Source: Candidatus Hydrogenedentota bacterium (GTDB lineage: Bacteria > Hydrogenedentota > Hydrogenedentia > Hydrogenedentales > SLHB01). From it: a DNA stretch of 34,701 nucleotides. Shown piece after piece: positions 20,770-30,288 of this stretch. The notes under the pieces were generated by a model that did not search any database, was not told the origin of the DNA, and saw only the letters and a program-made list of their open reading frames with translations. Made by a program: the position numbers and the translations under genes. Every line of letters begins with the position of its first letter. Positions within the stretch are counted from its first letter, which is position 1. The DNA lies in NCBI GenBank assembly GCA_016215105.1, contig JACRLJ010000027.1, positions 1 to 34,701 on the forward strand. Reading direction: 5' to 3'.

Positions 20770-22803
20770 TCAGTTCTCCCTCCGGAAAAAGCACTCGGGC
20801 GCCATGTTCCCCGGTGTCCGAAACACAAAGGAGGACACGGCTACGTCCGGCACGTTGCGAAAACCTTCTTTCACCACGCACAACGACGGTAATTCACCGA
20901 TCAGTCCGATGACCCACAAGTTTTGGCGGTTGATCTCGATAATCTCTTTGAAGAGGCCTCGCTGTTCCTGCTCGTCGGTTGCGGCCTCGATCTTGCGGTA
21001 GAGGTCAATGCAGCGGAGCATGTCCGGTAGCGGCTTCTCACCGCGCGCGGCGCCGCTGGTGTACCAGCGCATGAAGTCGAGTCCGTAGTACGAACCGACA
21101 TTGTGAGGGAAAAAATAGCGCGGATCGAGCAAAGGCTGATATTCGCCGGCGCCGGTCCACACGGTCACATCGTGCAGCGTGGCGTCCATGCGCCGGTTGA
21201 CCAACTCGCGCGCCAGCATCTTCATCTCGGTCTCGACACCGGCATTGGTCCAGTACTCCGCCACCAACTGAATTAACAGCGGATACAGCATCGCTGATGA
21301 AATCTCGATAGTGAGTTTTAGCGGCTTCCCGTCCGGACGCAGCCTGGTCCCGTTCTTTGCCCTGCGGTCCAGTCCCATTTCGTCCAGCAGGCGATTCGCT
21401 TCGTCCGGGTCAAACTGCGTGTAGGCCGCTTCGTAGTCCGCCGAGTAAAACGGCGACGCTTGAGGAGGGCAAAGTTGCCGGGGCTTGCCTATCCCGAAAT
21501 AGCACGCCTTGTTCAGCTCTTGGCGGTTGATGGCCAACGACATAGCCTTGCGGAACCGGAAGTCGCGGAAGATATCGCGCAGTATCGGGTCCCGGTGGTT
21601 CAGATTGATCAGAATCGCGTTCATCATATCCCCGCCGTCGATCCATTGCCGCACGGTGTATCCGCCGCGCGCCCGGTTCTCCATGAACAGCGGAAAGTTG
21701 TTGAACGCCAGATGACGGTCCTGCATATCCGCTTCGCCGTTGATGGTCTTCAGGTTGATGGTCTCGACGTCATAGATGCTAAGGTCGATGCGGTCGAGAT
21801 AGGGAAGTTGATTCCCCGCTGGATCAACCCTCCAATAGTAGGGGTTCCTTTCAAGCACGATAGGCCGGGCGGGCGGCGGACGCTTCATGATCCACGCGGT
21901 CAGCCGCGGCAAATCCGGATTGGTCCAGTCCTGTTTTCGCGCGAAGAGTTGGAACCACAAGTCGAGACGGTCCTCACGCGCCAATTCCTCCAGCTTCTCC
22001 TTGGGCGCATACTTCGGGTGATACTGTTTCAGATAATGTGCGGGATACAGGATTGCGTCGCTATACCGCGCCGCCATCAGCGGGATGAAGAGGCCGTACG
22101 GCTCCTTAAAGCGGAATCGGAAGGTGTATTCGTCCACGACCTCCAGACTCATCAATACCCCGCCCCGCATGAAGTACGATGGAAGCGTCGGCGTCAGATC
22201 CGCATTGTGCAATATGTCGTCATACCAAAAACGGATGTCATCCGTGGTAAAGGGGACGCCGTCGCTCCAACGAACGCCTTTGCGCAGCCAGAACGTAAAC
22301 GCGCGCCCGTCGTCGTCCACGCTCCAGCGTGACGCTAGATTGGGCAGGACACTGTCACCCAACGCGCCGTATCGGAGCAGGCCTTCGTAGAAGATTCGAT
22401 TCAATTGATTCGCGATGTCACCGGGGCTCGAGGCCAGCCGGTTCCAGGCGCCGCCGTATCGTCCGCATTGTTCGGGTGGTACGATTACCAACGGATCGAA
22501 AGGCAATCGATCGGAGACCGACGCGAGACTCCCCGGCGTGGTCAACGCGTGCAGCATGGGGGCCTCGTGGAACACGCGCCCCCGCTCTGCCGGCCACTCT
22601 TCGACATGGTGTACCGCAGTGGCCTTCGGAGGCGTCCATACCGGCGCCAACGCCGCTTCCGGCGCCCCGGCGGGGGCACTCGTCCCCGCGTCCGCCAACA
22701 TCCACGTCAGCCGCGCTACAACTTGCGTCAGGAAGAAGAAGCCCGCGAGTACCAGCGCGAGCGCCGCTACCGAGAGTGTGAGGAGCGACAAGGAACGCAT
22801 CAT
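20770..22803 (-). CDS. peptide-type ABC importer substrate-binding protein (SBP_bac_5)
   Basis: 677-residue extracellular solute-binding protein, longer than the usual 500-600. The N-terminus has a single long hydrophobic anchor (about residues 5-35) with no lipobox Cys, so it is tethered by a helix, not a lipid. After a proline/alanine-rich linker, the family signature regions are clear: LNRIFYEGLLRYG, FTFWLRKGVRWSDGVPFTTD (split over two strands), RFRFKEPYG and FRKAMSLAINRQEL. These features place it in family 5 (oligopeptide, dipeptide, nickel and some oligosaccharides). I prefer ATG 22803, though GGAGGAG is about 15 bases upstream; the adjacent ATG 22800 is equally possible. A GTG at 22851 lacks a site. 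Confidence 0.92.
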   Translation of the reverse strand: MMRSLSLLTLSVAALALVLAGFFFLTQVVARLTWMLADAGTSAPAGAPEAALAPVWTPPKATAVHHVEEWPAERGRVFHEAPMLHALTTPGSLASVSDRLPFDPLVIVPPEQCGRYGGAWNRLASSPGDIANQLNRIFYEGLLRYGALGDSVLPNLASRWSVDDDGRAFTFWLRKGVRWSDGVPFTTDDIRFWYDDILHNADLTPTLPSYFMRGGVLMSLEVVDEYTFRFRFKEPYGLFIPLMAARYSDAILYPAHYLKQYHPKYAPKEKLEELAREDRLDLWFQLFARKQDWTNPDLPRLTAWIMKRPPPARPIVLERNPYYWRVDPAGNQLPYLDRIDLSIYDVETINLKTINGEADMQDRHLAFNNFPLFMENRARGGYTVRQWIDGGDMMNAILINLNHRDPILRDIFRDFRFRKAMSLAINRQELNKACYFGIGKPRQLCPPQASPFYSADYEAAYTQFDPDEANRLLDEMGLDRRAKNGTRLRPDGKPLKLTIEISSAMLYPLLIQLVAEYWTNAGVETEMKMLARELVNRRMDATLHDVTVWTGAGEYQPLLDPRYFFPHNVGSYYGLDFMRWYTSGAARGEKPLPDMLRCIDLYRKIEAATDEQEQRGLFKEIIEINRQNLWVIGLIGELPSLCVVKEGFRNVPDVAVSSFVFRTPGNMAPECFFRREN

Positions 22804-22852
22804 GAACCGGTCAAGTACTCCTCCCTGTCTGCGGTGGCAATCCCAGGTCACA

Positions 22853-23908
22853 TCAATACGGGTATTCGAGGACGGCCTCCCGAAGGGCTAAATAGTTCTC
22901 CAAAGGGACCTCGTTGTTCAGTTCCGTGCTTGAACCTACCATTAGGCGGCCTTCCGCCGCATCCAGCGCGCGGCGCACGGCGTCGCGAACCTGCGCCGGT
23001 GTGCCGTGCGGCAGCAATTGCGAGACATCAATCGCGCCCGACATAAACAGATGCGGGTACCGGCGGTGAACTTCGCCCACGTCCATCCCCGCCAGCACTT
23101 CCATCGGATTGAGCCCATCGATTCCCGCCGCCACCAATCCGTCCAGGAGCGGGTTCAGATTCCCATCCGAATGAAACATCACCTTGATACCCTGGGCATG
23201 ATACGCGTCCAACACGCGCGTCAGCCGTGGGAAGTAGTGCTCGTGATACCACGCCGGGGCAAGAAACGGGCCGCCCTTGAACGCGATATCGTCTCCCGAG
23301 AACACGGCCTCGATGCCATGATTTCGCGGCAGGCGCTCAATCCACGCGCAGGAACTTACCGCATGACATTCGAGCAGTGCCGGCGTTAGTTCCGGGTAAT
23401 CGGCCAGGTAATAGGAGAAGTGCTCGAGCCCGATCTCACCGCAAATCCCCATTAGACCCAGTAGCGGACCGCCGGGGAAGAAGAACAGTTCTCCCAAGCG
23501 CCGGCGGTGGTCATCAATCGACGCCATGTAGGCGTCCATCTGCTCTTGCTTCGCCGGCGTCCACGATGGGTCGAAGGAGTCAATCTCCGCGCGTTTTGCC
23601 TTCGCATACGCTTCCCCATCCGCGTACCGGACATGTTCGGTCCAGGTGGTCCAACGGAATCGCCGCTCCGTCCGTCCATCGGGCCGAACGCTAGTTCCTT
23701 CTTCCTGGGGCAGCCGCACCATCGGACGAGTGGCGTCTATGGCCGGATCGTAGGCCCGAAACACCACTTCGGGCGCATTCTCGTTGGTCAAGGTTTCCCC
23801 TGCGAAGTAGCTGAGGACGGCGTCATTGCGCAGCAGGTCGAACAGAGGCGCCCGATCGGGCAGGTCACCCCGAATGACCGCTGAAACGCGTTCGCACGAA
23901 CCCTTCAT
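22853..23908 (-). CDS. UROD-like protein (uroporphyrinogen-decarboxylase superfamily), copy 1
   Basis: 351-residue cytoplasmic barrel of the UROD/MtaA superfamily, first gene before the ABC importer. The late-barrel segment IKVMFHSDGNLNPLLDGLVA (H246-S-D248-G249) and GIDGLNPMEVLAGMDV are typical, and GPLLGLMGICGEIGLEHF is the mid-barrel helix. It lacks the RQAGR segment of true heme-pathway UROD, and it lacks the Cys of the HxCG zinc motif in MtaA/CmuA-type corrinoid methyltransferases. So it is neither of those by residue content; the function is unknown, though such proteins are abundant in planctomycete-like genomes beside sugar genes. The ATG at 23908 has AGGAAGGGG upstream. The gap to the binding-protein gene is 49 bases. 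Confidence 0.85.
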   Translation of the reverse strand: MKGSCERVSAVIRGDLPDRAPLFDLLRNDAVLSYFAGETLTNENAPEVVFRAYDPAIDATRPMVRLPQEEGTSVRPDGRTERRFRWTTWTEHVRYADGEAYAKAKRAEIDSFDPSWTPAKQEQMDAYMASIDDHRRRLGELFFFPGGPLLGLMGICGEIGLEHFSYYLADYPELTPALLECHAVSSCAWIERLPRNHGIEAVFSGDDIAFKGGPFLAPAWYHEHYFPRLTRVLDAYHAQGIKVMFHSDGNLNPLLDGLVAAGIDGLNPMEVLAGMDVGEVHRRYPHLFMSGAIDVSQLLPHGTPAQVRDAVRRALDAAEGRLMVGSSTELNNEVPLENYLALREAVLEYPY

Positions 23909-24434: not shown

Positions 24435-25166
24435 ATGTTGCTAGGAATCGTGGCAGATCTGCACGCGAATCTCGAAGCGACTCAGGCTATTCTCAAGAAG
24501 CTCGACGAAATTCGTCCGGACCGGATCATCTGTCTCGGCGATCTTGCCGGTTACAACGCCAACCCCAATGAAGTTATCGATTTAATCCGCGAGCGGGATA
24601 TCGCATGTCTCATGGGCAACCATGACGCCGCCGCCTGCGGCCTGGAAGAGCCATGGTTCTTTAACTCCCATGCGCAAGCAGCCATCTCGTGGCAGGCCGA
24701 ACGATTGCGCGAAGACAATCGGCGTTGGCTCCGGAACCTGCCCCCCGCCATTCGCCTGAACGGAAAATTCATCGGGGTACACGGGGCGCTTGTCAGCCGC
24801 GATGACTACATACTCGATTGGCTCGATGCGATGCGGCAGATGGACGCGCTTGAAGAGAGCGGAGTGCGAATCTGCTTTTTTGGCCATAGCCACCGCGCCT
24901 CGTTATTCAGTGAGAAAGGCGGAGTGGAAATTACGGGCCAAACCATTACGTGCCAGCTCCATCGCAATAATCGCTACTTCATCAATCCCGGCTCCGTCGG
25001 CCAGCCGCGCGATCACGACTGCCGAGCGGCGTTTGGCCTGTTTGACACGGCCAATCTGACCTTTGAATTCTGCCGAGTCGAGTACGATATCGAGATCACG
25101 GCGGGAAAGATTCTGGCCTGCGGACTGCCGGCCGGGTTGGCCAACCGGCTTGCGGCAGGGAGATAG
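24435..25166 (+). CDS. calcineurin-like metallophosphoesterase (YfcE/MJ0936-like)
   Basis: 243-residue binuclear-metal phosphoesterase. All ligand motifs are intact: ADLHAN (D8, H10), LGDLAGY (D36), GNHD (N62, H63), VHG near the middle and FGHSH, with NPGSVGQPRD near the end, typical of the YfcE-like single-domain group. Such enzymes hydrolyse phosphomonoesters, phosphodiesters or cyclic nucleotides; the substrate is unknown. GAGGA lies about 9 bases before the ATG. It is followed 71 bases later by the receiver-kinase hybrid, likely in one transcript, which hints at a signalling role. It ends with TAG. Confidence 0.88.
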   Translation: MLLGIVADLHANLEATQAILKKLDEIRPDRIICLGDLAGYNANPNEVIDLIRERDIACLMGNHDAAACGLEEPWFFNSHAQAAISWQAERLREDNRRWLRNLPPAIRLNGKFIGVHGALVSRDDYILDWLDAMRQMDALEESGVRICFFGHSHRASLFSEKGGVEITGQTITCQLHRNNRYFINPGSVGQPRDHDCRAAFGLFDTANLTFEFCRVEYDIEITAGKILACGLPAGLANRLAAGR

Positions 25167-25237: not shown

Positions 25238-26383
25238 ATGGATACATCTGGAATGAAGGTCTTGCTGGTCGACGATGACGAGGAAGAGTATCTTCTTACG
25301 AAGAAGCGCCTCAGCAAGACCCGCATTGGACCACTCTCTGTCACTTGGGCGTCTACATTCGAAGCTGCGCTCGACGAGTTGAAAAGAAGCGCCCACGACA
25401 TATGCCTCTTAGACTACCAGCTCGGCGACCGTACGGGAATCGAGCTTCTTAAGGAGATGCGGGCGCGCGAGCATGACTTGCCAGTGATCTTGCTCACGGG
25501 GCACGGCAGCCTTGAGGTCGACCTTACCGCCATGGAGCTGGGCGCGCTCGACTACTTGGACAAGAAGGACATCACCCCTACGCTGCTCGAACGTTCTCTC
25601 CGATATACGGTGAACGCGCATCGGGCGCGAGCGGCCTTGCGAAAGGCGAATGAAGATCTCGAGCGGAGAGTGCAGGAGCGCACCGCTGAACTGCACCGCA
25701 GCAATCGCGAATTGGAGCAGTTCGCGCAGATGGTCGCCTCCGATCTGCGCGAACCGCTGAAGATTCTGGTCCACCGCATTGAAGTCATACAGTCGAAAGA
25801 GCGCTCCCGGGAGAACGAGCGCGACCCGCGCATCGTGCGCGGAATTCTCGATTCGATTCTGCATGCCGTCCGCAATATGGAATTGCTGATTCAGAGTGTC
25901 CTCGATTACGCCCAAGCCGGAAAGACGTCGAGGTCGACTACTACGGTCGATCTCAGCGCCGCCTTTGCCGAAGCGCGGGACGACCTTGCCGAAGCGCTCT
26001 CGGAAGTGGACGCTGAAATTGAGGTCGAGCCCCTGCCCACAGTCCGTGGAGACCATAATCTTATTCGCGGTCTATTTCGCAATCTGCTCGACAATGCCAT
26101 TCAGTTCCGTGGCAAACAGACCCCGGTCGTCCGGGTGTGGTGTGAGAGCAAGGGAGACGCGTGGGTAATTGGTGTCACCGATAACGGCGTCGGAATAGAC
26201 CCCGACCGGATTAGCGACCTCTTCGTGATGTTTCATCGCGGCGATCCCGACGCTGAGGACACCGGCATCGGCATTGGCCTGGCTATGTGCCGGAAGATTG
26301 CGCAGTACCATGGCGGCCGGATCTGGGTTGACTCCGAGCCGGGGCGTGGCTCGACGTTCTACGTGGCGTTTCCTGCCCACTAG
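25238..26383 (+). CDS. receiver-histidine kinase hybrid lacking the phosphoacceptor His
   Basis: 381-residue cytoplasmic protein. Residues 6-125 are a receiver domain with acidic pocket D12-D14, phosphoacceptor D59, T87 and K109. A coiled coil (about 128-160) leads into a dimerisation helix reading FAQMVASDLREPL. In canonical relatives such as the neighbouring kinase this is FTYVASHDLQEPL, so Ser168 replaces the phosphorylated His. The ATPase domain keeps its N box (LFRNLLDNAIQF), DNGVGID and TGIGIGLAMC. Autophosphorylation at the usual site is therefore not expected; it may act as a receiver-controlled regulator or a dimer partner. The ATG at 25238 has GAGGAG upstream. It ends with TAG and faces the kinase/regulator pair. 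Confidence 0.88.
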   Translation: MDTSGMKVLLVDDDEEEYLLTKKRLSKTRIGPLSVTWASTFEAALDELKRSAHDICLLDYQLGDRTGIELLKEMRAREHDLPVILLTGHGSLEVDLTAMELGALDYLDKKDITPTLLERSLRYTVNAHRARAALRKANEDLERRVQERTAELHRSNRELEQFAQMVASDLREPLKILVHRIEVIQSKERSRENERDPRIVRGILDSILHAVRNMELLIQSVLDYAQAGKTSRSTTTVDLSAAFAEARDDLAEALSEVDAEIEVEPLPTVRGDHNLIRGLFRNLLDNAIQFRGKQTPVVRVWCESKGDAWVIGVTDNGVGIDPDRISDLFVMFHRGDPDAEDTGIGIGLAMCRKIAQYHGGRIWVDSEPGRGSTFYVAFPAH

Positions 26384-26423: not shown

Positions 26424-26882
26424 CTAAACGGAGGAATTTGGCAACACGACTAGGTCAAACCAATAGTGTTCGAGATCCTGGATCGCCCGGATAAAGCCTT
26501 CCATGCGGACGGGCTTAGTCACATACGAATTCACACCCAGGTCATAGCTGCGCAGAATGTCCTCCTCCTGCGAAGAGGTCGTAAGTATGACCACGGGGAT
26601 GCGGCGCAGCGACGGATCGCTCTTGATTTGGCTCAGGACAGCGCGGCCATCAACCTTGGGCATATTGAGGTCCAGCAGAATTAAATCCGGCCGTGGAGAT
26701 GACTTCGCCGCGGCGTACGCGCCCCGCCGGTACAAGTAATCCAGCGCTTCTTCGCCGTCGTCCACCGTCATGAGCACATTCCGCAGCTTGCTTGCCCGCA
26801 GTGCCCGCTTCGTCAATTCCTGATCCTCCGGATCGTCATCCACGAGCAAGATTACCGCCGCTCTGGATTGTGGCTCGCACAT
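26424..26882 (-). CDS. CheY-like response regulator (Rcp1-type)
   Basis: 152-residue stand-alone receiver domain without an output domain. The acidic pocket is D15-D17, the phosphoacceptor is D71 in LILLDLNMP, with T101 or T102 and K123 in TKP. The DGEEALDYLYRRGAY insertion is typical of Rcp1-type regulators, which pair with phytochrome-like kinases. I prefer ATG 26882, with GGGAGG about 10 bases upstream. A GTG at 26891, overlapping the kinase stop as GTGA, is possible but its site is only about 1 base away. It directly follows the kinase gene and is its likely target. Confidence 0.92.
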   Translation of the reverse strand: MCEPQSRAAVILLVDDDPEDQELTKRALRASKLRNVLMTVDDGEEALDYLYRRGAYAAAKSSPRPDLILLDLNMPKVDGRAVLSQIKSDPSLRRIPVVILTTSSQEEDILRSYDLGVNSYVTKPVRMEGFIRAIQDLEHYWFDLVVLPNSSV

Positions 26883-26887
26883 CGGAT

Positions 26888-29380
26888 TCACGCCTCCCGC
26901 TTTTGGGTTAAAGTAAATTTGAAGTGCGCGCCAGCGCCTAACTCGGACTCGACCCAGATCGCGCCTCCGTGCCGCTCCACAATCCGGCGGCAGATCGCGA
27001 GGCCGATTCCCGTGCCTTCGTACCGGCCGCGTCCATGCAGGCGCTTGAACGGCGCAAATACCTGCTTGGCGTACTCCGGTTTTATGCCGATTCCGTTGTC
27101 TGCGACGCCGAACACCCAGCCTCCCGCCTCTTGCGCAGCGGTCAACCGAATGTGCGGAGCAGTTTCACAGAACTTCAGCGCGTTACCTATCAAGTTTTGG
27201 TACAGTTGCGTCAACATACTCGCGTCGCCTCGCACCGTCGGCAATGCGCTGCGAATGATCTCGGCCGATCGTTCCTTGATCCGGATCTCGAGGGCGTCCA
27301 ACGCGTTATCGACACACTCGTCGAGCGCAACGGATTCCATGATCATTCTCTGGCGGCCGGAACGCGATAGCGCGAGCAAGTCCTGGACCAGACGCTGCAT
27401 CCGCTGAGCGCCTGAGGATAGTATCTCGATGTCCTTCAACACCGCGTCGCGGTCACCGGCTTCCATATCTTCGCGTAACGCGTCACTGAACGCCGTAATC
27501 TTCCGAAGCGGCTCCTGGAGGTCGTGGCTGGCGACGTATGTAAACTCGTCCAAGTCCTGGTTGCGGTGCTTCAAATCCACGTTTGCCTGTTGCAGCAGCT
27601 TCGTATGATTCTTGAGCGATTCTTCCATGATCTTGCGATCGGTAATATTGCGGCTCATGCCGACAATTCCCGCCACGTTCCCCTTCGCATCAACGAACGG
27701 CGCCTTAGTCGTCATCAGCCAGCGCTTTTTCCCGTTTTCGTCGATGACCTCTTCCTCGCGGTTAACCAAGAGCCGGCCCGTATGCACAACCGCCTGCTCA
27801 TCCGCAAAGTAGCGTGCGGCCAGCGGCTTGGGGAAAATGTCGAAATCGGTTTTCCCGGCCACCGCGCCGGCCGATTCCGCTCGCAAGAGACGAAGGTGCG
27901 CTGTATTATTCAAGACAAAGCGGCTTTCGGTGTCCTTCACGTAGATGTAGTCGGGAAGATTGTCGATCAGGGTACGCAGCAGGTTCCTCTCGCGCGTAAT
28001 GGTCGCCTCGGCGTGCTGATGCCGTACCGCATTCGTAAAGACCTGGCCCAGGATTCGCAGCAAGTGCGCCTCGTCATCATCCCACTTTTTGCCGCCGCTG
28101 TCCGAACATATTCCAATAAACCCGGCGACAGTCCCCTGGAAGCTCACGGGAACGCCCATCAGCGCTCGAATACCCAGCCGCCGCAACAATCTGCGCTCTT
28201 TCGCGGCCTCGGGAGGAAGTATGTCCACGGACTCCAAGGCAACGGGTTCCGACTGCCGTATGCGATCCTGCCACCACGACATCGTCCGGATGTCGACGGA
28301 TTGGAATCGTTTCCTGACGCTCGTCGCGGCGCCCCGTGGCCACATGTAGGTCGAGGAGAAGGTGTTTCCGTCTTCGGAAAACCGGGCGGCAAAGGCGGCG
28401 CTGGCCCCGGCGAATCGGCCGATTCGACCAAGGGCGTCCTCTATCGCATCAGTCGTTTGTTCCGGCGTTAGCCCGACAAATTCGGTCGAAATGTCAGAGA
28501 CGAGACGCGCCAGGACGCCGCGGTATCGCAGCAGAGTCTGCGTCTGCCGCTCCTCGGTGATATCGTTGAAGAGGACTACCGTGCCGTGAAACTTCCCGCT
28601 CACGTCGAGCATTTTTCTCGACGTAACGCGAAACCACCGAACGCCCTTGAGCGTCTCGAGTTCCCGCTCGATTTCGACTTGGCCGCTCTTCGTTCCGATC
28701 TCGATTTCGCGCGCAAGCCACGACAGCGGCTTCGGGAGAGGCCGATCCCCGTAGTAGGCCGCGCCGGGAACCCTCAGGCCTTCAAATACCTCGGCGGCGG
28801 CGTGATTCAGGTTCTCGAGCGCTCCGGCGGGCCCCAGCAGAATCGCGGGAATATGGAGGCTCTCAAGAACCGTCACGTATTTGTTCTTCTCGTTGGTCAA
28901 CCGCCGGTTGGCGGACTGAAGTTCGTCCACTCGGGCGTCCTGTCCCTGCGCGGACCATTCCGTGCAGAACCCGATTTCAATCCGGTCAAAGAAACGCTCC
29001 ACGACGCGCAGATACTGCGCTTGCTCTTCGGGCGCGAATCCGCCGTCATACACCAAGTCAAGATAGGCCTGGCGATAGTACTTCATCAGCCCTAAGAACA
29101 TGCCCAGCGTGACACCGCGCGACCGATGCCGTTGGGCCTCCAAGACGCCGAAGGACGCTGTCGAATCGAGGGAGTAGTCCTCGTCCGGATTCAGTTCTTG
29201 CGGGAGCGCGCTGCGTTTCAACAAATCAAGGAGCGAAGCGGATAGACCCGCGATAGAAATGCGCCAAGCTTCCGCCAGAGTCGAGGTGTACTTCACATAA
29301 TCGCGCTCTCTGGCGTAGCGCAAGATACGGTCGATGAGCCAGTCTTCCCGGGCGGCGACGAGATCAGCAAGAGTCCCCAT
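26888..29380 (-). CDS. multi-domain sensor histidine kinase (PAS-GAF-PAS-HisKA-HATPase)
   Basis: 830-residue soluble sensor kinase. Residues 1-150 are a helical N-terminal sensor of unknown ligand, possibly like RsbR- or globin-type sensors. PAS-like 1 spans about 165-280 (ending VVLFNDITEERQ), GAF about 290-455, and PAS 2 about 470-585 with LIDNLPDYIYVKD and GMSRNITDRK. The dimerisation helix YVASHDLQEPLRK has H619, and the ATPase domain has QNLIGNALKF, DNGIGI and TGIGLAICRR. There are no membrane helices, so it senses an intracellular or diffusible signal. The downstream regulator is the likely partner. The ATG is preceded by AAAGG about 12 bases upstream; a TATAAT lies at 29504-29509. Confidence 0.9.
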   Translation of the reverse strand: MGTLADLVAAREDWLIDRILRYARERDYVKYTSTLAEAWRISIAGLSASLLDLLKRSALPQELNPDEDYSLDSTASFGVLEAQRHRSRGVTLGMFLGLMKYYRQAYLDLVYDGGFAPEEQAQYLRVVERFFDRIEIGFCTEWSAQGQDARVDELQSANRRLTNEKNKYVTVLESLHIPAILLGPAGALENLNHAAAEVFEGLRVPGAAYYGDRPLPKPLSWLAREIEIGTKSGQVEIERELETLKGVRWFRVTSRKMLDVSGKFHGTVVLFNDITEERQTQTLLRYRGVLARLVSDISTEFVGLTPEQTTDAIEDALGRIGRFAGASAAFAARFSEDGNTFSSTYMWPRGAATSVRKRFQSVDIRTMSWWQDRIRQSEPVALESVDILPPEAAKERRLLRRLGIRALMGVPVSFQGTVAGFIGICSDSGGKKWDDDEAHLLRILGQVFTNAVRHQHAEATITRERNLLRTLIDNLPDYIYVKDTESRFVLNNTAHLRLLRAESAGAVAGKTDFDIFPKPLAARYFADEQAVVHTGRLLVNREEEVIDENGKKRWLMTTKAPFVDAKGNVAGIVGMSRNITDRKIMEESLKNHTKLLQQANVDLKHRNQDLDEFTYVASHDLQEPLRKITAFSDALREDMEAGDRDAVLKDIEILSSGAQRMQRLVQDLLALSRSGRQRMIMESVALDECVDNALDALEIRIKERSAEIIRSALPTVRGDASMLTQLYQNLIGNALKFCETAPHIRLTAAQEAGGWVFGVADNGIGIKPEYAKQVFAPFKRLHGRGRYEGTGIGLAICRRIVERHGGAIWVESELGAGAHFKFTLTQKREA

Positions 29381-29565: not shown

Positions 29566-30288
29566 TCACGTCCACTCGACAGGCGGGAGCGGCGCTCCCC
29601 ACCCCGGCGCGGGCGCCAGATTTCCTAGCTCGTCGTATTCCCAAATCACGGCCCGCCGGGAACAGCCGCTGTCATTGGCTCCCGAGTAGTGGATGGTCAG
29701 GGAACCGAAGAACATAGCGTCACCGGGTTCCGCCACGAAGGCCACTTCTCGCGCGCGATCCTGTTCCGTGACACGGCAAACCCAATGCCGTTCGCCCGAT
29801 TGGGCGTGATACTCCTCGTGGTGTTCTAACAACCCTTGTTTATGACTCCCCGGAATGGCGCGTAGACAGCCGTTGGCTTCGGTCGCCGGATCGATGCACA
29901 GAATCACCGCCACCTGATTGGCCTTTCTTCCTTGCCAATAGTAATAGTCTTGATGCGGCGGCTGCGCCGTACCAACGGACGCCGCCTTGCACATCAGCTT
30001 GGTGTGGTGGAGCTGAATGGCTCCGCCAAGAAATCCTCTGGCGCGCGTCACGATGTCCTCGCGATTGACCAGTTCGCGAAATGACGGGCAATAGTCGTAT
30101 GGGCCGAAGATCACACGCGCGACGCCTACGCGTTCAAATAGGTGGTTGCCTCGCCAGCGACCGGTTTCGACGTTGCGCCGCAGTTCGTCGAGCTCTTCGG
30201 TCAGGTTCTCTAGTGCGGAGCCCCTCACGGCGCCGCGCACAATCAGAAAACTGTTGTCCCGGTAGAACTGTAGTTCTTTGGCGTCCAT
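29566..30288 (-). CDS. phytanoyl-CoA dioxygenase (PhyH) family protein
   Basis: 240-residue Fe(II)/2-oxoglutarate dioxygenase of the PhyH family. Metal ligands are His112 and Asp114 in PPHQDYYYW and His200 in SLTIHYSG; Arg211 or Arg212 in SRRAV is the likely oxoglutarate-binding residue. The AIPGSHKQGLL stretch is typical. Such enzymes hydroxylate a wide range of small molecules; the substrate here is not known. The CGGAG site is 8 bases before ATG. Last of the cluster that starts with two SDRs, and separated from the UROD-like gene by 234 bases. Confidence 0.9.
   Translation of the reverse strand: MDAKELQFYRDNSFLIVRGAVRGSALENLTEELDELRRNVETGRWRGNHLFERVGVARVIFGPYDYCPSFRELVNREDIVTRARGFLGGAIQLHHTKLMCKAASVGTAQPPHQDYYYWQGRKANQVAVILCIDPATEANGCLRAIPGSHKQGLLEHHEEYHAQSGERHWVCRVTEQDRAREVAFVAEPGDAMFFGSLTIHYSGANDSGCSRRAVIWEYDELGNLAPAPGWGAPLPPVEWT

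Follow-up and report, generated by a model that had tools for sequence, protein, structure and literature searches.

The 381-residue protein encoded at positions 25238-26383 of the window (the whole stretch of 34,701 nucleotides analyzed here) carries a receiver in front of a histidine kinase core that has no phosphoacceptor histidine, and the histidine is missing in all of its full-length orthologs. We consider it probable that this protein is a receiver-controlled pseudokinase on an LvrB-like chassis, which is switched via Asp59 and signals by binding. The features of its gene are as follows.

25238-26383, plus strand: REC-DHp-CA pseudokinase without phosphoacceptor His, 381 aa (open reading frame, Pfam, alignment, tree).
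25256-25603, plus strand: receiver domain (Pfam Response_reg, alignment, structure model with pLDDT mostly >90).
25604-25711, plus strand: coiled-coil signaling helix, residues 123-158 (identity by segment, spacing, model).
25712-25759, plus strand: H-box helix of the DHp domain without His, residues 159-174 (alignment).
25739-25741, plus strand: Ser168 codon TCC at the phosphoacceptor position (codon read).
25763-25849, plus strand: DHp residues 176-204, drifted among orthologs (segment identity).
26048-26377, plus strand: HATPase_c (CA) domain with N box N282/D285/N286, G1 box DNGVGI and G2 box GIGIGL (Pfam, alignment).

Orthologs were surveyed in 68 genomes of the window's phylum, all from one order. 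A full-length ortholog is present in exactly five of them (the window genome, G004, G010, G021 and G024), which belong to one bacterial family, so that the depth of conservation is limited. The four other orthologs are 44-48% identical to the window protein over the alignment. A sixth locus, in G011, holds only the first 51 residues at a contig end. One pattern scan of the genome contigs, including other phyla, gave no further full-length His-less member; its sole extra member was the truncated contig L053. The contig JAACEL010000529 (L053, L084) is titled Nitrospiraceae, and its phosphoesterase is identical to the one in G011. The genome set places G011 in the window's family, and the Nitrospiraceae record name is probably wrong for the bin.

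Ser168 sits at the acceptor site of the H-box FAQMVASDLREPL (residues 162-174, positions 25721-25759). The acceptor column of the five full-length orthologs is ungapped and reads Ser (window), Arg, Arg, Gly and Gly. The VA-x-DL register is fixed by relatives that keep His and have FAFLVAHDLQAPL and FAHVIAHDIRAPL here. The proposal of the earlier note that Ser stands in place of the phosphorylated His is therefore borne out. Its statement that every flanking position matches the neighboring kinase was too strong, as only 6 of the 12 positions besides the acceptor are identical between FAQMVASDLREPL and FTYVASHDLQEPL of that kinase. It had also suggested that conservation of Ser168 be checked in orthologs, and Arg, Arg, Gly and Gly were found instead. 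Because the orthologs carry Arg or Gly, no Ser-specific chemistry can be deduced, and a conserved Ser or a Ser-specific role was ruled out. As judged from the alignment, the absence of His is the conserved trait and Ser is incidental. We also ruled out an indel reading (VAS-DL, with His deleted and an upstream insertion), since the relatives show VAHDL or IAHDI in the same register. The other aligned kinases, from the window genome and its relatives, have His in the acceptor column, and the lone other exception is a Chitinophagaceae set with Asn.

Neither the coil nor the DHp domain of the five orthologs has a conserved His column, and an alternative acceptor His was ruled out on this ground. 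H128, in the coil, is present in 4 of 5 orthologs and H153 in 3 of 5; H179 and H209 are confined to the window protein. The earlier note had held that an ortholog with His, or a neighboring His acting as acceptor, would indicate a local mutation or a misalignment. Both were looked for; no ortholog carries His and no neighboring His is conserved. A local mutation, a sequencing error or a misaligned H-box in an ordinary REC-HK would agree with the weak recognition of HisKA (PF00512) that persists in the window protein, where this domain appears degenerate with 23.4 bits, under the cut-off of 26.9 bits. However, four orthologs lack His in the same column, and the VAHDL relatives fix the register. 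Because TCC is two base changes away from CAC or CAT, a single sequencing error cannot give Ser168. We give this reading almost no chance, and on the aligned sequences the ortholog set already refutes it.

The domains on either side of the DHp domain are well recognized. Pfam assigned Response_reg (72 bits) and HATPase_c (90 bits) to the 381-residue window protein. Response_reg is above its cut-off in the window protein and orthologs, and HATPase_c scores 77-93 bits across all five orthologs. The Pfam scan at E<=0.01 gave no HisKA match in the other four orthologs. No PAS domain was found by Pfam in the window pseudokinase or its orthologs, and the N-terminus is the receiver. The D12-D14 acidic pocket, the acceptor D59, T87 and K109 of the receiver are invariant in 5 of 5 orthologs. 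The assignment of D59 (codon at 25412-25414) as receiver acceptor in the earlier note thus stands. The AlphaFold model of the pseudokinase has a mean pLDDT of 84.9. It predicts a single helix, residues 114-190, which runs continuously from the receiver into the DHp domain and bears residue 168. The receiver, another DHp helix and a CA domain whose ATP lid is loose make up the rest of the model. The spacing from K109 to site 168 is 59 residues in 5 of 5 orthologs and in the His-bearing relative L070.

Selection was compared along the gene between G010 and G021, where synonymous sites are near saturation, so that the dN/dS values of 0.073 (whole gene), 0.061 (REC) and 0.064 (CA) are approximate. 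The H-box segment is 100% identical in protein sequence between these two. Among the five genomes, the mean pairwise identity is 62% for REC, 78% for the coil, which is the best conserved segment, 77% for the H-box segment, 19% for DHp residues 176-204 and 56% for CA. The matching DHp stretch in the paired kinase stays at 58%. In working kinases, the part of the DHp domain that follows the His contacts receivers, and the drift of residues 176-204 is expected if phosphotransfer contacts are no longer selected. The loss of constraint is local, in the DHp domain after the H-box, with the receiver, coil and nucleotide site kept. With an intact receiver and with purifying selection on a conserved CA domain, the gene encodes a maintained pseudokinase and is not decaying. 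This supports the view of the earlier note that loss of the whole kinase is not the explanation. Its description of the ATP boxes as intact holds for the window protein and two orthologs and fails for G010 and G021 (genus g11), whose G2 boxes (SPGIGL, NPGIGL) no longer have the first Gly. Given this loss, ATP binding may not hold across the clade.

These values also bear on whether the protein is a dead-end phosphate sink, in which the receiver alone would matter by draining the paired kinase and the DHp and CA domains would be a passive dimer scaffold. The full conservation of the REC residues and the partial degeneration of the DHp domain are compatible with a sink. However, a passive scaffold would not need a CA domain of this identity with most nucleotide boxes kept, and CA has nearly the same low dN/dS as REC. 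The kinase is, moreover, already paired with a stand-alone receiver. A phosphate sink is therefore distinctly unlikely.

A maximum-likelihood tree of 53 rows was built from the DHp-CA regions. The five His-less proteins form a single clade (support 99/97), which three His-bearing proteins join at 99/98: L070 (G010), L025 (G034) and L026 (G026). The sister proteins G034/L061, G026/L062 and G010/L070 start with a receiver or receiver-like domain. In the G034 and G026 sisters, the REC domain is 38-41% identical to the window REC and is followed by a further segment, which is PAS in G034/L061 (Pfam), and then the kinase core. Because the His-less proteins are a single clade beside His-bearing REC-kinases, the simplest history is that a REC-controlled kinase lineage lost its His once, in an ancestor. 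The neighboring GAF/PAS kinase falls in a separate starred clade of the same tree. Origin by duplication of this neighbor is thus not favored, and the pseudokinase probably did not arise as its copy. The family offers a clean comparative case, with His-bearing sisters, loss on one branch and measurable drift just after the H-box.

Two side observations were made among the relatives. L070:1195-2670 (G010) has the reverse pattern; its His is kept (FAFLVAHDLQAPL) and its receiver is too diverged for Pfam. The Chitinophagaceae PAS-DHp-CA kinases with Asn for the H-box His (FTYITTNDIKEPL, FTYITSNEIKEPL) come from three species, Longitalea luteola, Longitalea arenae and Niastella vici (L054:2916-4157, L055:2843-4108 and L056:3196-4392). 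L054, the only one of the three that was scanned with Pfam, has HisKA below the cut-off and an intact HATPase_c. They make up another His-less lineage, distinct from the first, and here the residue that replaces His does look conserved.

The pseudokinase gene is part of a four-gene island, whose other members are listed below.

24435-25166, plus strand: calcineurin-like metallophosphoesterase, 243 aa (Pfam Metallophos_2).
26424-26891, minus strand: stand-alone receiver, 155 aa, no output domain (Pfam).
26888-29380, minus strand: paired GAF/PAS histidine kinase, 830 aa, H-box VASHDLQEPL intact, with H619 (Pfam, alignment).

The order metallophosphoesterase > pseudokinase > < receiver < kinase is identical in 5 of 5 genomes. 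The metallophosphoesterase gene lies 71 bp upstream of the pseudokinase gene on the same strand and adjoins it in all five loci and also in the truncated sixth. The stand-alone receiver gene overlaps the kinase gene by 4 bp, and the window receiver is 74-76% identical to those at the other four loci. At E<=1e-100, orthologs of the paired kinase occur in exactly the five pseudokinase genomes of the 68; related kinase-receiver pairs without a pseudokinase occur elsewhere. The phosphoesterase family is found in 65 of 68 genomes of the phylum, and in the pseudokinase genomes the island holds an additional, separate copy. The island phosphoesterases group as a clade (100/98) that stands apart from the other copies. 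A mere housekeeping neighbor is for this reason not favored, although the family is nearly universal in the phylum. By island order, paired-kinase distribution and phosphoesterase clade, the four genes travel together. They make up a natural module in which the pseudokinase is the only receiver-linked output domain.

Scans for promoters and terminators gave only shuffle-level signal and are uninformative. The island is flanked by metabolic genes (URO-D family, PhyH dioxygenase and solute-binding protein family 5 by Pfam), which lie at 22853-23908, 29566-30288 and 20770-22851 (minus strand) of the window. None of them has a match around the island of the other four genomes.

Co-inheritance with the neighboring kinase in five genomes and the conserved CA domain would also fit a heterodimer formed through the DHp domains, in which the pseudokinase inhibits its neighbor or lends its CA domain to the partner His, like FasB/FasC or RetS/GacS. 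Histidine kinase heterodimers usually pair close paralogs, and the two proteins come from different kinase lineages in the tree. The DHp loop of the pseudokinase is four residues longer, and its DHp domain has drifted after the H-box. Split or pseudokinase pairs such as FasBC and ChrS/HrrS are precedents (PMC12675982, PMC9491836). A heterodimer with this neighbor is possible but rather unlikely, and we do not favor it because of the different kinase lineage.

The adjoining, co-inherited phosphoesterase on the same strand raises the further idea that the GHKL domain phosphorylates another protein, with Ser/Thr or a partner His as the target; the metallophosphoesterase would then oppose it or serve as effector. 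GHKL kinases that act on Ser without a His exist, as in PDK and RsbW, and conservation of the CA domain despite the lack of an own His would be accounted for. However, the substrate is only putative, the CA domain belongs to the HATPase_c type of histidine kinases, one G2 glycine is missing in two orthologs, and the phosphoesterase family is also found away from a pseudokinase gene in most genomes of the phylum. We regard such a kinase as very unlikely. Just as slim is the chance that the protein is a receiver-switched GHKL kinase whose conserved ATP site serves to phosphorylate another protein rather than its own His, and which has, as its partner by descent, a dedicated metallophosphoesterase to reverse or execute the signal. 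If true, it would be a two-component system whose output is a couple of a non-His kinase and a phosphatase.

The receiver-switched pseudokinase remains our preferred reading and may be pictured as follows. The ancestor would have been an LvrB-type histidine kinase under receiver control. Its DHp phosphoacceptor His would have been lost once in the lineage, after which the position drifted to Ser, Arg or Gly. From the gene linkage and the intact receiver, the neighboring GAF/PAS kinase is a candidate phosphodonor for D59 and may phosphorylate both the stand-alone receiver and Asp59. By homology to LvrB, phosphorylation of Asp59 would rearrange the DHp/CA core along with the coiled-coil helix. 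In this new state the dimer, probably with nucleotide bound if the predicted ATP binding holds, would act as the pathway output by protein-protein contact with a putative partner. Without the His, the pseudokinase should neither autophosphorylate on its DHp domain nor pass phosphate on, and this is why an output by contact is expected. The lineage-wide loss of His in a protein kept beside a working kinase suggests a phosphorylation-operated switch, not a phosphate-passing enzyme. The earlier note had proposed phospho-controlled dimerization or an inhibitory partner; both are putative, and the mechanism we favor is a REC-controlled switch.

To our knowledge, few bacterial pseudo-histidine kinases have been characterized. 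In a Foldseek search, the best full-length PDB match of the pseudokinase was LvrB (8vc9; E 1e-20, TM 0.37). The match spans all domains, and the TM is low because the relative domain placement differs; the sequence match covers residues 6-380. LvrB is a REC-controlled histidine kinase of Leptospira (8vc9; PMC13269768), in which phosphorylation of the REC makes the coiled coil form and releases the CA domains to carry out autophosphorylation. It keeps the catalytic H161, autophosphorylates and hands phosphate to LvrC (PMC13269768). The two proteins share the order REC, helix, DHp, CA, a nearly equal length (381 vs 382 aa) and an intact acceptor Asp. The receiver pocket, continuous helix and CA boxes of the LvrB type are all found in the pseudokinase; the DHp acceptor His is gone in its whole clade, whereas LvrB keeps H161. 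Within the phylum, the sister REC-HKs that retain His have VAHDL or IAHDI; in two of them an extra segment lies between REC and DHp, and the acceptor of L070 likewise lies 59 residues from the REC Lys.

DivL of Caulobacter (4q20, rank 32 in the structure search) has Tyr550 in place of the acceptor and is a regulatory module without kinase activity (PMC4211667). Like the pseudokinase, it has lost the acceptor His from an otherwise recognizable HK core. However, DivL has N-terminal PAS domains and binds the separate receiver DivK~P, while the receiver of the pseudokinase is fused, and the residue is Tyr in DivL but Ser, Arg or Gly here, where it is not fixed. In FasBC and ChrS heterodimers, a kinase-like partner missing one activity also works with a competent kinase (PMC12675982, PMC9491836). 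These lose or forgo CA function, not primarily the His, and no fused receiver is described. The open-access literature searched yielded no description of a His-less REC-HK clade. The Caulobacter hybrid kinase CCNA_03265, however, is reported to lack the conserved His and to keep the receiver Asp, with a nearby His as candidate substitute (PMC11481889). The pseudokinase has no conserved substitute His, and the two are likened by description only. REC-HK architecture and DivL-like acceptor loss are thus each known, and their combination across a clade appears to be new. DivL sets the precedent that an output core can become a sensor once its acceptor is lost, and a whole REC-HK lineage without the acceptor would allow the LvrB-type REC-to-CA switch to be studied with the chemistry removed.
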